Part shown: positions 22,111 through 54,223 of the stretch, piece after piece
Layout of the letters: each line of letters starts with the position of its first letter
How positions within the stretch are numbered: position 1 is the stretch's first letter
Origin: Dehalococcoidia bacterium
GTDB taxonomy: Bacteria > Chloroflexota > Dehalococcoidia > Lucifugimonadales > SHYT01
NCBI GenBank assembly: GCA_009693045.1
Contig: SHXZ01000005.1
Coordinates: 62,001-126,000, forward strand
Direction of reading: 5' to 3'
Length of the DNA: 64,000 bases
Made by a program: the position numbers and the translations under genes
The notes under the pieces: model-generated
The model's input: only the letters and a program-made list of their open reading frames with translations
The model's database searches: none
What the model was told of the DNA's origin: nothing

Positions 22111-22134
22111 GTTGTCGTCGTTGGAAGGTGCTTG

Positions 22135-23052
22135 GTGCGAATCAGGACGTTGACGTTCCTCATAGCCGCCATTGTGGCGCTCGCGGCGTGTTCGTCAGAC
22201 AGTCAGGGCGGAAGCAGCGCGCCACCCGCTTCCGGGGACGAGACCGTCGTCATCCCCGCGATGAGCGAGGTGACCGTCGGGACGCAGCGGTTCACGTTCG
22301 CGGCATTCACCAAGGATGGGGACCTCTTTGAAACGCCACAGGCGGCGGTGCAGTTCTATCTGCTCAAAGGCCAAGAGGACGTACGGAAGCGAAGCTATCA
22401 GGCGACGTTCTACCGGTTGGAGATTGAGGTGCCGCACCTCCACGAGGGGGGTGAGGTACACGGGCACCAGGACGTGAAGGGCTTTTATCTGGTGCCGCAA
22501 GCGGAGTTTGATTCGACGGGGGTCTGGAGGGCTGACGTTACGCTGGGTACGGGAGAGCGGAAGGGCAGCCTTGCGTTCCAGGTGGAGGCAGGGACCGAGA
22601 CGCCGGCCGTCGGCGCGCCCGCGCCTGCATCCAAGAACCTGGCGGCGAAGGACGTTCCAGACCTCACGCAGCTCACCACGCGGACGCCGCCGTATCCGCG
22701 TTTCCACCAGGTGTCCATCGCTGAGGCGATCCAGGAGCACAGGCCACTGGTCGTGGCGTTTTCCACCCCTGCTTTTTGTGTGAGCCGGATCTGCGGGCCA
22801 GTGCTGGAGATCGTGCGGTCTGTGGCCGACGGCGTCGGCGACGAGACGGCGTTCGTCCAGATTGAGCCGTACGACATCACGGAGGCGAGGACTCAGGGGA
22901 AACTGGAGCTGACGCCGGTGTCCAGGCAGTGGGCCTTGCAGAGCGAGCCGTGGGTGTTCGTGGTGGATAAACAGGGCAAGATTGCCGCGAAGTTTGAGGG
23001 GCTGCTGACGCGGCAGGAGCTGCTTGAAGCCATACGAAAGGTTGGAGGGTAG
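22135..23052 (+). CDS. Lipoprotein with thioredoxin-like domain
   Basis: A 305-residue exported lipoprotein. Residues 1-20 form a signal peptide ending in the lipobox LAAC, so Cys would be lipidated by Lgt. A β-rich domain (VPAMSEVTVGTQRFTFAAF and onward) with His-rich HLHEGGEVHGHQD follows; those His residues could bind metal. The C-terminal part, LVVAFSTPAFCVSRICGPV then WVFVVDKQGKIAAKFEG, is a thioredoxin fold with CxxxxC instead of CxxC. GTG 22135 is chosen because GAAGGTG precedes it. It is followed after 5 bp by a membrane protein gene, so the two probably form an operon, perhaps in extracytoplasmic redox or metal handling. Confidence 0.78.
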   Translation: MRIRTLTFLIAAIVALAACSSDSQGGSSAPPASGDETVVIPAMSEVTVGTQRFTFAAFTKDGDLFETPQAAVQFYLLKGQEDVRKRSYQATFYRLEIEVPHLHEGGEVHGHQDVKGFYLVPQAEFDSTGVWRADVTLGTGERKGSLAFQVEAGTETPAVGAPAPASKNLAAKDVPDLTQLTTRTPPYPRFHQVSIAEAIQEHRPLVVAFSTPAFCVSRICGPVLEIVRSVADGVGDETAFVQIEPYDITEARTQGKLELTPVSRQWALQSEPWVFVVDKQGKIAAKFEGLLTRQELLEAIRKVGG

Positions 23053-48885: not shown

Positions 48886-50562
48886 ATGCTGCAACACGAT
48901 GTGCTTGTGGTGGGCGCGGGGCTGGCTGGGATGCGCGCCGCGCTGGCGGCGAAGCAGGCTGGCGCGAACGTCGCCATCATCAGCAAGGTCACGCCCGTGC
49001 GCAGCCACTCCAACGCAGCGCAGGGCGGCATCAACGCCGCGCTCACGGACCGCGGCGACGACTGGAAAGAGCACGCGTACGAGACCGTGAAGGGCAGCGA
49101 CTATCTGGGCGACCAGGACGCCATCGAAATCCTGTCCCAGGACGCCGGCCGCGCCGTCATTGAGCTGGAGCACATGGGCGTCGTCTTCAGTCGCGGGCCG
49201 GACGGGCTCCTGGGCACGAGGCGCTTCGGCGGGCAGCAGCGGGCGCGCACGTTCTTCGTGGCGGACATCACCGGCCAGGCGATGTTGCACGTGCTATTTG
49301 AGCAGCTCCTAAAGTCCGGCATCACGCTATACGAGGAATGGTTCGTCACGTCGCTGGTCATGGAAGACGGCCAGTGCCGCGGCGTTGTGGCGCTGGAGAT
49401 CAAGAGCGGCAAGCTGGAGCTGATCACGTCCCCGGCGGTGGTGCTCGCCACCGGCGGCTGCGGACGCATCTACGAGCCGAGCACCAACGGCCTCATCGTT
49501 ACCGGCGATGGCATGGCGCTGGCGTACAAGGCGGGCGCGCCGCTCATGGACATGGAGATGGTCCAGTACCATCCCACCACCCTCAAGCAGAACGGCATTC
49601 TCATTACCGAGGCGGCGCGCGGCGAGGGTGGCTACCTGCTGAACGGCAAGGGCGAGCGATTCATGGACAAGTACGCGCCGTCGATGAAGGAACTGGCGTC
49701 GCGAGACGTCGTCTCACGTTCCGAGCAGACGGAGATCAACGAAGGGCGCGGCGTCAACGGGTGCGTGCTACTGGACCTGCGTCACCTTGGACGGCAGGTT
49801 ATCGAGACCAAGCTGGCGTACATCAACGAGGTGGCGCTGGACTACCTGGGGATCAGCCTTGCCGAAGCGCCGATCCCGATCCGACCCGGGATGCACTACA
49901 TGATGGGCGGCATCAAGACGGACGTGCACGGAGCGACGCGCGTGCCAGGGCTCTACGCGGCGGGCGAGACGGCCTGCGTGAGCGTCCACGGCGCGAACCG
50001 CCTGGGCGCGAACTCGTTGCTGGACACGGTGGTGTTCGGGCGGCGGGCTGGCGATGCTAGCGCGGCGTACGCGAAGGAGCGCGGCCACAAGAACGTCTCC
50101 GAGGCGTTCGTCGCTGATGAGGAAGCGCGCATTAAGGGGATTCTGGCCCGGTCCACGGACGGGGACAGCGTGGCCAAGATTCGCCTGGAGATGGGCCAGG
50201 TCATGAACGACAACATCTCCGTCTTCCGGCACGAAGAAGGGATGAAGAAGGCGCAGACCACGATCCGCAGGCTCAAGGAGCGGTACGCCAGGGTGGGCGT
50301 CCAGAACAAGGGGAAGGTGTTCAACACGGGCCTCATCTTCTCGCTGGAGCTCGGCTACATGCTGGACGTGGCGGAGACGATTGCGGCGGGAGCTCTGGCT
50401 CGCAAGGAGAGCAGGGGCGCCCACGCCCGCGTGGACATGCCCGACCGCGACGACGCGAACTTCCTGAAGCACGCGCTGGTGTTCAGGACGGAGAGCGGGC
50501 CTCGGATTGACTGGCTGCCCGTGACCATGACGCAGTGGCAGCCGCAGAAGCGGGTGTACTAG
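48886..50562 (+). CDS. sdhA: Succinate dehydrogenase/fumarate reductase flavoprotein subunit
   Basis: A 558-residue FAD subunit. VLVVGAGLAGMRAALAAKQA is the dinucleotide-binding site and SHSNAAQGGINAAL carries the His that covalently binds FAD in this family. MVQYHPTTL, TEAARGEGGYLLN and SVHGANRLGANSLLD are catalytic and FAD-site motifs. It is followed by sdhB and a CCG-domain subunit, so this is the catalytic part of a complex II variant that oxidises succinate (or reduces fumarate) with quinone. GGGGGTAAGG precedes ATG 48886. Confidence 0.94.
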   Translation: MLQHDVLVVGAGLAGMRAALAAKQAGANVAIISKVTPVRSHSNAAQGGINAALTDRGDDWKEHAYETVKGSDYLGDQDAIEILSQDAGRAVIELEHMGVVFSRGPDGLLGTRRFGGQQRARTFFVADITGQAMLHVLFEQLLKSGITLYEEWFVTSLVMEDGQCRGVVALEIKSGKLELITSPAVVLATGGCGRIYEPSTNGLIVTGDGMALAYKAGAPLMDMEMVQYHPTTLKQNGILITEAARGEGGYLLNGKGERFMDKYAPSMKELASRDVVSRSEQTEINEGRGVNGCVLLDLRHLGRQVIETKLAYINEVALDYLGISLAEAPIPIRPGMHYMMGGIKTDVHGATRVPGLYAAGETACVSVHGANRLGANSLLDTVVFGRRAGDASAAYAKERGHKNVSEAFVADEEARIKGILARSTDGDSVAKIRLEMGQVMNDNISVFRHEEGMKKAQTTIRRLKERYARVGVQNKGKVFNTGLIFSLELGYMLDVAETIAAGALARKESRGAHARVDMPDRDDANFLKHALVFRTESGPRIDWLPVTMTQWQPQKRVY

Positions 50563-50570
50563 TTGACGCA

Positions 50571-50610
50571 CTCACTCCGACCCTCCCTCCCCGGGGAGGG
50601 AGCAGGTGAG
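50571..50610. repeat. CTCAC...CCTCCCTCCCC/GGGGAGGGAG...GTGAG palindrome
   Basis: A variant of the second repeat family between sdhA and sdhB. Confidence 0.55.
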
Positions 50611-50630
50611 GGAACCAAGGAGGCACTAGC

Positions 50631-51602
50631 TTGCAAATCACGCTCCGCGTTAAGCGCTACAACCCGGAGGCGCCGGAAGAGCGCCGCTCTTGGACTCAGG
50701 ACTACAAGGTTGACGTCCCGGAGGACTCCACGGTGCTGGACAGCCTCATCCAGGTGCGGGAGTACGTGGATGACAGCCTGAGCCTGCGCTGCTCGTGCCG
50801 GGGCGCTATCTGCGGCTCGTGCGCGATGCGGGTCAACGGCCACGCGGCCCTGGGGTGCAAGTCCAAAGTCCAGAAGCTGTTGGGCAAGGACAACGTCATC
50901 GCCGTGGAGCCGATGGGCAACCAGCCGGTCATCAAGGACCTGGTGGTTGACATGACGGTCTTCTGGGACAAGATTCGGCAAGTGCAGCCGTGGCTCCAGC
51001 CGCAGGGTCCGGAGCCGGAGGCGGAGTACGTCGCGCCAAACGAGGCTATGCAGCACCTGGTCGGTGTGATGGGCTGCATCATGTGTGGCGCGTGCGTCTC
51101 CGATTGCACGGTGCTAGAAGTGGATAAGAACTTCATCGGGCCGGCGGCGCTGGCTAAGGCCTACCGGTTCGTGGCCGACCCGCGCGACGGGCACGCGAAG
51201 GACCGTCTCGGGTTGTATAACAAGGCGGGAGGCATTTGGGACTGCACGAGGTGCTTTGAGTGCGTGCAAGTGTGCCCGAAGGGCGTGGCGCCGATGGACC
51301 GCATCATGGCGCTGCGGGATCAGGCCATTGACGCGGGGTTCATCGGCAGCTACGGGGCGCGCCACGCGGAAGCCTTCGCGAGTAGCGTGGAGCACAGCGG
51401 GACGGTGAACGAGATGTCGCTGGTGGTCAACACGTTCGGCATGTTCAACCTTCCCAAGCTGCTGGGCCTGCTGCCGCTGGCAATCCGGGCGGGCTACAAG
51501 CGCAAGATGCCGCCGCTGTTCCACAAGCCCGTCGAGGGCATAGCCGGTGTCCGGCGGATCTTCCACAAGGCCGAGGAGCAGCAAAAGGCGGCGCGCGGCT
51601 AG
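50631..51602 (+). CDS. sdhB: Succinate dehydrogenase iron-sulfur subunit
   Basis: A 323-residue subunit with three Fe-S clusters. The N-terminal plant-type 2Fe-2S motif reads RCSCRGAICGSCAMRVNG. CIMCGACVSDC and CTRCFECVQVCP provide the remaining clusters. The C-terminal extension of about 90 residues after the last motif is longer than in E. coli SdhB. The start is TTG 50631, well supported by AAGGAGG 8 nt upstream. No SdhC or SdhD hydrophobic anchors are encoded nearby. Confidence 0.93.
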   Translation: MQITLRVKRYNPEAPEERRSWTQDYKVDVPEDSTVLDSLIQVREYVDDSLSLRCSCRGAICGSCAMRVNGHAALGCKSKVQKLLGKDNVIAVEPMGNQPVIKDLVVDMTVFWDKIRQVQPWLQPQGPEPEAEYVAPNEAMQHLVGVMGCIMCGACVSDCTVLEVDKNFIGPAALAKAYRFVADPRDGHAKDRLGLYNKAGGIWDCTRCFECVQVCPKGVAPMDRIMALRDQAIDAGFIGSYGARHAEAFASSVEHSGTVNEMSLVVNTFGMFNLPKLLGLLPLAIRAGYKRKMPPLFHKPVEGIAGVRRIFHKAEEQQKAARG

Positions 51603-51684
51603 TGGGCGTGCTGCGTTCAACATCCGTACGCCCCCGCGATGGCATCCGCATAGGTGGCAAAACAAGGGCTTTGAGGAGAAAAAC

Positions 51685-52569
51685 GTGAAGTTTGCCTTTT
51701 ACCCCGGCTGCGTGTCCCGCGGCGGCTGCCCCGAGCTGTACCCGTCCGTGCTGGCCGTGGCGCACCGCTTTGGCATTGAACTGGACGAGATTGTGGGCGC
51801 CTCGTGCACGGGCGCGGGCGTGCTGCAGGAGAAGAACCGCTTTCTGGGCGACAGCCTGAACGCCAGGACGTTTGCGATGGCGGAGCGGATGGGCCTGCCC
51901 ATCATGACCATCTGCAGCACGTGCCAGGGCGTGATGGCGCAGGCTCACCAGCGCCTGCGCGACGAGGCCTACCGCGCTCAGGTCAACGAGGTGCTCAAGG
52001 AAGAGGGCCTGGAGTACAAGGGGACCGTTGAGGTCAAGCACATGCTCTGGGTGCTGGCCGAGGATATCGGCGTGGAAGAGGTGAGGAGAAAGGTTGTGCG
52101 GCCGCTCTCAGGGCTCCGCGTTGCGCCGTTCTACGGCTGCTACATCGTGCGGCCGAGCGGGCCGCTCGGCTACGACGAGCACCCGGAGCGCGCCGAGTCG
52201 CTGGAGCGGGTGATTGAAGCCGTTGGCGCCACCGTTGCTGACTTTCCGGGCAAGACGCGGTGCTGCGGGTTCCCCATTCTGACGATTAACGAGCCGGCGT
52301 CCATGCGCATGGTGGCGAAGCACACGCTGGAGGCCAAGGAGCACGGCGCGGACTGCATGGTGACGCCGTGCCCGCTGTGCCACCTGAACCTGGACGGCCA
52401 GCAGCCCAAGGCGGCGATGGCAGCGAGCCAGGATATTGACCTGCCCATTCTGCACCTGCCGCAGCTTGTGGGGCTGGCGCTGGGGCTTGACTCCAACGTT
52501 TTGGGACTTGGCCGGCACATTCAGACTACGTACAGCGTGCTTATGAAAGTGGGCGTGCAGGTCCACTAA
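51685..52569 (+). CDS. CCG-domain subunit of a non-classical (SdhE-type) succinate dehydrogenase
   Basis: A 294-residue protein related to HdrB and archaeal SdhE. Two cysteine-rich CCG modules are present. The first spans FYPGCVS, SCTGAG and CSTCQGV; the second spans FYGCYIV, RCCGFPI and CPLCHLN. These modules bind Fe-S centres and in type-E complex II may link SdhAB to the membrane in place of heme anchors. The GTG at 51685 follows GAGGAGAA. It is 82 bp after sdhB, in the same operon. SdhE here means the CCG subunit, not the E. coli FAD-assembly factor of the same name. Confidence 0.88.
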   Translation: MKFAFYPGCVSRGGCPELYPSVLAVAHRFGIELDEIVGASCTGAGVLQEKNRFLGDSLNARTFAMAERMGLPIMTICSTCQGVMAQAHQRLRDEAYRAQVNEVLKEEGLEYKGTVEVKHMLWVLAEDIGVEEVRRKVVRPLSGLRVAPFYGCYIVRPSGPLGYDEHPERAESLERVIEAVGATVADFPGKTRCCGFPILTINEPASMRMVAKHTLEAKEHGADCMVTPCPLCHLNLDGQQPKAAMAASQDIDLPILHLPQLVGLALGLDSNVLGLGRHIQTTYSVLMKVGVQVH

Positions 52570-52783: not shown

Positions 52784-54223
52784 ATGATCCAGATAGGAAT
52801 GGGCGCAGACATCCTGCGGACAGCTTGGTTTGTCATAAGCTGGCACGGGTTCCTCAGCTTCGTTGGCACGCTGGTCGCGGTGCTTCTCGTGGTCCGGTGG
52901 GCAAGCCCGCAGGTGGCGAACCCCGCCAAGCCTAAGACGCTGCTAGGGCGGATCGGCAGGTCAGCGCGGGGTTTCCTTGGCATGGAAAGCGACCTGTTTC
53001 TTGGCAAGCTGGAGAAGGAGCTTGAGGGGGCCATCAAGCAGGTCCGGGACACGGCGTCGCAGTATTTCAAGGACATACGGCTGCGGGAAGTGGCGGAGAC
53101 GCCGCAGGGAATCGCGCTTGCCTCCGGCGAGCTGCCCGACATGATCAAGAAGCTGCCCCTACAGGAGAGGATGCGGGTCACGGTGGTGACGAGGGACGGC
53201 GGCGTGGTCGCGGACACCGCTGATGACCCCGGCGTGCGGGACATGCCCGCGGTGCTCCGAGACGCGCGATCGGTGCTCAACGGCTTTCCGGGCATGGCGG
53301 TCCGGACCGTCAATAGAGAGGAGCACGCGGTCTTCACGTATCCCGTGATTGTGGAGCGGCCCGTGGCGACGAAGGTGGAGGTTGGCGGCGGAACGGGCGA
53401 GGCGAGAGTCAACGTCCTGATGGAGCGCACCGAGCGGATTGTGGGTGGGGCGGTCCGGATCACGGTCCCGACCGGGGGCGCGACCGGAGTGCGAGCGAGG
53501 ACGGTGGAAGCCGTCTACAACGTTGCGATATGGGGCATCGTGGGCGGCATCATTGGCGCCAGGATTGTCCACGTCGTTGATGAGTGGCGGTTCTATGGGG
53601 CGAACCCCGGCCAGATCATCGCCATCTGGAACGGCGGCATTGGTTTGTGGGGCGCGTTGTTGGGCGGGTTCCTTGGCGGCTTGCTGGCGGCGAAGCTGTA
53701 CAAAGTGCCGGTCGGGAAGATGGCCGATCTTGCGGGACTGACCATGCTGCTCGCGCAGGCCATCGGGCGCGTTGGCGACATCATCAACGGCGAGCATATT
53801 AGCAAGGTCACGAACGCGCCGTGGGGATTCGTGTGGAGCAACCCGGAAAGCCCCACGTTCCGCTCGTACGGGCTGGCTGCCACCCACCCGGCGGTGGTGT
53901 ATGAGCTGATTTGGGACCTTCTTCTCTTCTTCTTCTTGTGGCGGTTCGTGCGAGGGCGGCTCAAGCCGGACGGCATGCTGTTCGTGGCGTACCTGGGGTT
54001 TTACTCGTTCGGGCGGTACTTTATCCAGTACTACCGCGTGGACCGCATCTGGTTTGCGGGGCTTCAAGAGGCGCAGCTCATCGCTCTGGCGGTGATGCTC
54101 GTCACGATACCCCTGCTGGCGTTCAAGGCACGTATCGTCCATCGTGATGCGGCAGAACCAGTACCGGAGCCGCCGCCATCGCCCCGGCGCAGGCCGGCGG
54201 CGGCGAGCAGAAGCGCCGGCTAG
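52784..54223 (+). CDS. lgt: Prolipoprotein diacylglyceryl transferase (Lgt) family protein with a ~200-residue sensor-like insertion
   Basis: A 479-residue protein; typical Lgt is about 260-300. TM1 is at about 14-39 with SWHGF at the catalytic-Tyr place (WYG in E. coli). Then about 200 residues (42-243) have no match to Lgt. The rest resumes the family pattern: GGIIGARIVHVVDEW, IWNGGIGLWGALLGG, AIGRVGDIINGE (328-337, with the essential Arg) and YSFGRYFIQYYRVD (407-420). The insert contains a long helix (69-100). It also contains RMRVTVVTRDGGVVADTADD (129-148) and HAVFTYPVIV, a pattern like PAS/CACHE-type sensors of histidine kinases. Lgt attaches diacylglycerol to lipoprotein Cys; this protein may sense something as well. 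No other lgt lies in the window. Confidence 0.8.
   Translation: MIQIGMGADILRTAWFVISWHGFLSFVGTLVAVLLVVRWASPQVANPAKPKTLLGRIGRSARGFLGMESDLFLGKLEKELEGAIKQVRDTASQYFKDIRLREVAETPQGIALASGELPDMIKKLPLQERMRVTVVTRDGGVVADTADDPGVRDMPAVLRDARSVLNGFPGMAVRTVNREEHAVFTYPVIVERPVATKVEVGGGTGEARVNVLMERTERIVGGAVRITVPTGGATGVRARTVEAVYNVAIWGIVGGIIGARIVHVVDEWRFYGANPGQIIAIWNGGIGLWGALLGGFLGGLLAAKLYKVPVGKMADLAGLTMLLAQAIGRVGDIINGEHISKVTNAPWGFVWSNPESPTFRSYGLAATHPAVVYELIWDLLLFFFLWRFVRGRLKPDGMLFVAYLGFYSFGRYFIQYYRVDRIWFAGLQEAQLIALAVMLVTIPLLAFKARIVHRDAAEPVPEPPPSPRRRPAAASRSAG

Follow-up and report, generated by a model that had tools for sequence, protein, structure and literature searches.

The gene examined here raises the question of why a protein with the hallmarks of prolipoprotein diacylglyceryl transferase (Lgt) has a further domain between its first two transmembrane helices (TM1 and TM2), and what that domain is, where it came from and which side of the membrane it faces. 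Lgt is generally regarded as a constitutive housekeeping enzyme that, to our knowledge, has no allosteric input. The preliminary description of the window, by which we mean the whole analysed stretch of 64,000 nucleotides, had proposed that an Lgt-family protein is split at this point by about 200 residues resembling by eye the CACHE/PhoR-type sensors of histidine kinases, a new arrangement possibly coupling lipoprotein maturation to an envelope signal.

The open reading frame starts with ATG, is uninterrupted and is intact in the window sequence. It matched the Pfam family LGT (PF01790) with E=1.4e-46 and 159.2 bits, the curated cut-off being 24.9, and the E. coli Lgt structure 5AZB was retrieved with the window protein by phmmer; the NCBIfam equivalog TIGR00544 gave 106.9 bits, under its cut-off of 118.9. 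Because TM1 ends at about residue 40 and the Pfam match, which is confined to profile positions 41–238, begins at residue 239, about 200 residues are extra. The spacing from the WHG motif of TM1 to the WxGG motif of arm-2 is accordingly 263 residues, versus 69 in most Lgt of the same order. The frame, the Pfam match and this spacing all bear out the proposed split by an insert, which covers residues ~41–240 with a Cache domain proper of ~170 residues (Table 1). Its GC3 is of coding type and about as high as that of the Lgt core, and its dN/dS is ~0.2 between the window and L076 copies, with dS near saturation, pointing to constraint weaker than in the core. Hydropathy and charge pattern agree with the seven-TM, N-out Lgt layout with a head domain between TM4 and TM5, but automatic prediction counted six TM segments in the window Lgt and seven in L076.

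Table 1. Features of the lgt-like locus, in window positions, with residue numbers of the encoded protein.
Feature	Position	Strand	Remark
sdhB-like gene	50631..51602	+	conserved neighbour
Heterodisulfide-reductase-B-like gene, upstream	51547..52569	+	conserved neighbour
lgt-like gene, Lgt with internal Cache domain, 479 aa	52784..54223	+	PF01790 match
TM1 with SWHGF, residues ~14–40	52823..52903	+	conserved order-wide
Basic linker, residues 41–65	52904..52978	+	window copy only
Cache domain, residues ~66–232	52979..53479	+	long N-terminal helix 66–103, then beta-beta-alpha-beta-beta-beta core
Extended beta-hairpin in Cache core, residues ~192–220	53357..53443	+	alignment and model
C-terminal Cache helix into TM2, residues ~233–265	53480..53578	+	model helix 233–263
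Lgt core TM2–TM7, residues 239–445	53498..54118	+	Pfam match
Arm-2/TM3 motif GIGLWGALL, residues 285–293	53636..53662	+	W289 at the place of E. coli H103
Lgt signature GRVGDIINGE, residues 328–337	53765..53794	+	R329 = E. coli R143; D332 at N146

The insert was found in three of 59 related genomes, all belonging to one small family of uncultured Chloroflexota and representing three genera: the window genome and the Lake Baikal MAGs Baikal-deep-G107 (G001; loci L004 and L077) and Baikal-deep-G126 (G002; loci L003 and L076). These three MAGs are all that are available for the family, so that within it every genome has the insert at a conserved open frame. The copies are in frame at the same place with 37–52% identity among them (52% for L076 and 38% for L077 against the window). 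Since two further family MAGs have the insert at the same place, chance or misassembly is excluded; an assembly chimera, an intein and a frameshift were likewise rejected, the reading frame running through the insert in all three MAGs, each from a different genus. L076 and L077 have no such linker as the window copy, their Cache helix almost abutting TM1, and the hairpin is common to the window and L076 and occurs neither in L077 nor in kinase sensors. A search for related loci with the window protein alone gave none, and the family alignment found the two Baikal MAGs. With a profile of the insert, no further insert-bearing Lgt was detected in overlapping sets of 250 order, 393 class and 400 phylum genomes. 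Outside the family, every convincing profile match that was read, these being the stronger ones, was a PhoR-type histidine kinase.

Lgt loop lengths were compared within the class. In the sister (L005) and the next relatives (L006 and L007), the hdrB-lgt locus is the same and its lgt codes for the ordinary short loop. In a tree of the Lgt core built without the insert columns, the three insert-bearing copies group together (100/98), and L005 is their sister (96/89). Because these cores form one clade, a single gain is the simplest reading, and judged from the sequences the Cache domain was most likely captured once, in the ancestor of the family. The gene order sdhA-sdhB-hdrB-like lies directly upstream of lgt at 48886–52569 (+) in the window and is kept in families f1, f20 and f21 of the order, for which sdhB and hdrB were tested. 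We considered the succinate dehydrogenase neighbour as a source of ligand and rejected it, as the same neighbours occur without the insert. In another family, locus L013 (G036) has a different insertion of ~26 residues (IHVRVPILTLGRPSQWKRVTVLRVTG) in the TM1–TM2 loop of Lgt.

Several lines of evidence bear on the nature of the insert. The L077 insert alone matched sCache_3_2 (PF17203) with 29.9 bits, above the curated cut-off of 28.4, and covered, at a lower score, the whole profile of Cache_WalK (PF23846) with E=0.0011. The window and L076 inserts alone fall under every Pfam Cache cut-off, with no match of the Pfam Cache models to the window insert alone, and are tied to L077 by alignment; the identification of the window copy therefore comes through the profile and the L077 copy. 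The three-sequence profile picks up PhoR-type histidine kinases in the order, class and phylum genomes, and the kinase segment that it matches is sCache_like (PF16736) according to Pfam. When this profile was aligned by hhalign with 18 PhoR-type kinase sensors, the probability was 98.5 (E=3e-15, 125 columns) and the alignment spanned both ends, the terminal GxxR...P strand included. The control against the cytoplasmic PAS domains of such kinases gave a probability of 0.4, and a cytoplasmic PAS domain was rejected on this ground. Conversely, a profile of the sensors only had a sole match per family genome, always the Lgt insert (E 2–3.5e-6), and no match in three insert-free genomes. Searching PDB sequences with the profile of the insert produced no significant match. 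Gly, Arg and Pro positions that are invariant or nearly invariant in the aligned set, e.g. R174, G222, R225 and P229, are kept in all three copies, while the MENH and Tyr positions of the kinases are not retained in the alignment of the Lgt inserts, and the kinase ligand may therefore no longer bind.

An AlphaFold2 model of the insert alone, made from the three sequences (pLDDT 73, pTM 0.69), has the order helix 2–38, helix, beta-beta-alpha-beta-beta-beta, helix. Among its best Foldseek matches are the extracellular domains of WalK (9A5D, 7DUD and 4YWZ; probability 0.99–1.00, TM by target 0.55–0.61 for 7DUD and 4YWZ), the E-values being modest (best 3.3e-3), and the other top matches are mostly extracytoplasmic sensors, CitA, DctB and LuxQ among them. 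In models and alignment alike, a helix leads out of TM1 into a PAS-like beta core from which another helix leads into TM2; the long helix noticed at the outset corresponds to the modelled N-terminal helix, a usual feature of Cache domains. A disordered linker is ruled out by pLDDT values of 70–90 across the domain core and by the conservation of this core. In a model of the full-length protein the insert has mostly pLDDT 70–88 and the membrane core is poor, for which reason this model is uninformative on how the insert docks. That the insert might instead be another profilin-like fold serving protein interaction, such as roadblock/LC7 or an MglB-like domain, is suggested by the presence of MglB among the weak Foldseek matches of the full-length model and by a comparison of the insert profile with Robl_LC7 (E=0.29); however, the best 50 matches of the insert-only model, with WalK, CitA, DctB and LuxQ on top, include no roadblock domain, and the sequence profiles align with Cache kinases across the full length, so that this reading is barely credible. 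The resemblance first seen by eye thus has the support of sCache_3_2 for L077, of hhalign, of the reciprocal search and of the WalK matches. Together with the kinases found by the insert profile these make five lines of evidence, which all agree, and with high confidence we take the insert to be a single Cache domain like those of PhoR/WalK-type kinase sensors.

In the structure of E. coli Lgt, the periplasmic side comprises the head domain as well as arm-1, which precedes TM1, and arm-2, which lies between TM2 and TM3 (PMC4728403). As these elements belong to the periplasmic side, the TM1–TM2 loop is expected to be cytoplasmic (PMC4728403), and the charge pattern of the window protein and its relatives fits this, their odd loops being basic. 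The insert thereby probably faces the cytoplasm, opposite to the Cache domain of the kinases, and on this topology we would rely with good confidence. Cache domains are mostly extracellular (PMC4822843); their usual, though not structurally defining, setting, outside the cell and attached to a signalling output domain, is absent here, the host being Lgt and the loop presumably cytoplasmic. If the topology of TM1 and TM2 had changed so that the insert were extracytoplasmic, the idea of an envelope sensor would be valid. The homologous kinase domains do sit outside the cytoplasm, and an isolated fold cannot tell the sides apart, but insert-free orthologues have the same conserved TM1, including the strand at its N-terminus and the SWHG motif, the odd loops remain basic, no convincing additional TM was found within the insert (a segment flagged in L077, 174–192, is the last Cache strand), and an inverted loop would place arm-2 on the wrong side. 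We therefore consider such a change very unlikely. Since the loop is cytoplasmic by these indications whereas the homologous kinase domain lies outside, the envelope signal put forward in the preliminary description is not upheld.

Whether the protein still works as an Lgt has to be asked because six residues are absolutely required in the E. coli enzyme, namely Y26, H103, R143, N146, G154 and R239 (PMC13251419), and four of these differ in the window protein: Y26H, H103W, N146D and G154S (H21, W289, D332 and S340). The equivalents of R143 and R239 (R329 and R411) are present with the GRxG signature, and in E. coli numbering G142, R143, G145, E151, Y235, R239 and R246 are kept. As the list of required residues is that of E. 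coli, the activity becomes less certain and membership of the family is unaffected. A membrane receptor derived from Lgt, or an enzyme with another substrate, could explain the retention of only R143 and R239 among the six, and low activity is presumed for a homologue from M. smegmatis that has Y26H and N146C (PMC13251419). Against this, Y26H, H103W and N146D occur order-wide, also in Lgt that have no insert, and so are not tied to it; W is normal at H103 in Actinobacteria, with H103 and N146 varying in other Lgt as well (PMC13251419); and the seven residues named above are retained. Moreover, the window genome, which is 83% complete, has this gene as its only PF01790 match, together with LspA and many lipobox proteins, including substrate-binding proteins with a lipobox-like Cys. 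The presence of LspA and lipobox proteins means that a functional Lgt is needed, for which this gene is the sole candidate found. Loss of the transferase function is thus quite unlikely, and the gene most likely encodes the working Lgt of the cell, with predicted diacylglyceryl transfer activity. Across the order, the prevailing Lgt type (loci L005–L031 and the window) has Y26H and N146D with H103 mostly W and in some cases Y, F or L, and several genomes of the order have a second type with GC..INGD (N146C, E151D; e.g., L098, L099, L100 and L102). Elsewhere in the window, 22132–23052 (+) is a lipoprotein-like ORF with the lipobox VALAAC, whose C-terminal part is thioredoxin-like by eye (CVSRICGPV).

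The gene coding for a PhoR-type kinase in G001 (L089:1009–2523, −) has lost an extracytoplasmic Cache sensor of ~150 residues and kept its HAMP, PAS and kinase domains, and the same genome has the Cache-bearing Lgt. This orthologue is 62% identical from HAMP to ATPase, and ~20 residues stand in place of the sensor. G000 and G002 have one HisKA match each, of other types, and the sensors-only profile detected no other domain of this kind in the three family genomes. As the G001 kinase is without exactly the sensor segment and the family genomes have no other such domain, it is tempting to suppose that a PhoR-type sensor moved into Lgt while the kinases of the family lost or lack theirs, making Lgt an allosterically gated receptor of a cytosolic metabolite. 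This supposition is weakened because G022, which has no Lgt insert, likewise has a sensor-less PhoR-like kinase, and because the tree of inserts and kinase sensors, in which the inserts sit by themselves on a long branch, singles out no donor kinase. We consider such a relocation improbable.

Our preferred reading, towards which we lean slightly, is a working Lgt with a once-captured Cache domain as a cytosolic regulatory module on TM1 and TM2. A single PhoR/WalK-type Cache would have been inserted into the cytoplasmic TM1–TM2 loop in the ancestor of the family, retaining its native mounting by a long helix from TM1 and a helix into TM2, with the membrane side inverted relative to the kinases. 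The front cleft of Lgt between TM1 and TM2 is the presumed entry of phosphatidylglycerol (PMC4728403). Because the Cache domain joins the very helices flanking this cleft, we propose that a small internal ligand, once bound, or else Cache–Cache dimerisation may shift TM1 and TM2 and that this shift may alter lipid access or turnover. Both ligand binding and gating are putative, and a regulatory role of the insert in general seems only a little more probable than its absence. Cache and PAS folds often dimerise, and the domain could be present solely for dimerisation, as a scaffold or for binding a partner protein, with no ligand sensing. Such a role would suit the good prediction of the long helix at the N-terminus, one of the best-predicted parts, the loss of MENH and Tyr at the positions typical of the kinases, and an evolution of the insert that is faster than that of the core; however, the preservation of the beta core together with the helix, and of positions such as R174, G222, R225 and P229 in every copy, speaks for more than a scaffold, and we hold this alternative to be possible, if rather doubtful.

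Under the regulatory reading, the retention of the Cache domain in three genera amounts to a natural experiment, suggesting that lipoprotein maturation is tunable at its first step and indicating TM1/TM2 as the place where tuning of Lgt could act. Lipoprotein modification may then answer to an internal signal, and a sensor domain of the kind that kinases have outside would be working on the inner side of the membrane.

As far as was searched, this is a new domain architecture from known parts with a narrow distribution. The proteins in which Cache domains have been described are ones with signalling outputs (PMC4822843), searches of the open full-text literature brought up no account of a sensor domain within Lgt, and a survey of the diversity of Lgt from 2026 names an extension at the C-terminus in M. 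tuberculosis without mention of any insertion (PMC13251419). The claim of novelty therefore stands within the genomes and open papers searched, separately from that of envelope coupling. Compared with Lgt (PF01790; E. coli 5AZB/5AZC), the window protein is alike in the TM1–TM7 core, in GRxG..INGE, in the equivalents of R143, Y235, R239 and R246 and in fold match; it differs at H103, Y26, N146 and G154 and adds a domain of ~170 residues and a linker in the TM1–TM2 loop. With the Cache sensors of PhoR and WalK (PF16736, PF17203 and PF23846; PDB 4YWZ, 7DUD and 5IS1) the insert shares the layout TM-helix-Cache-helix-TM and the predicted fold, and is alignable over its full length; in contrast to them it is predicted to be cytoplasmic, is without the MENH motif, has an extra hairpin in two of three copies and is followed by no HAMP, kinase or other signalling output, its host being an enzyme. 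YkuI_C and Diacid_rec are principally intracellular Cache families, YkuI_C occurring in an EAL-domain protein (PMC4822843), and so share the predicted side of the insert, but they belong to other families and are not loops of membrane enzymes.
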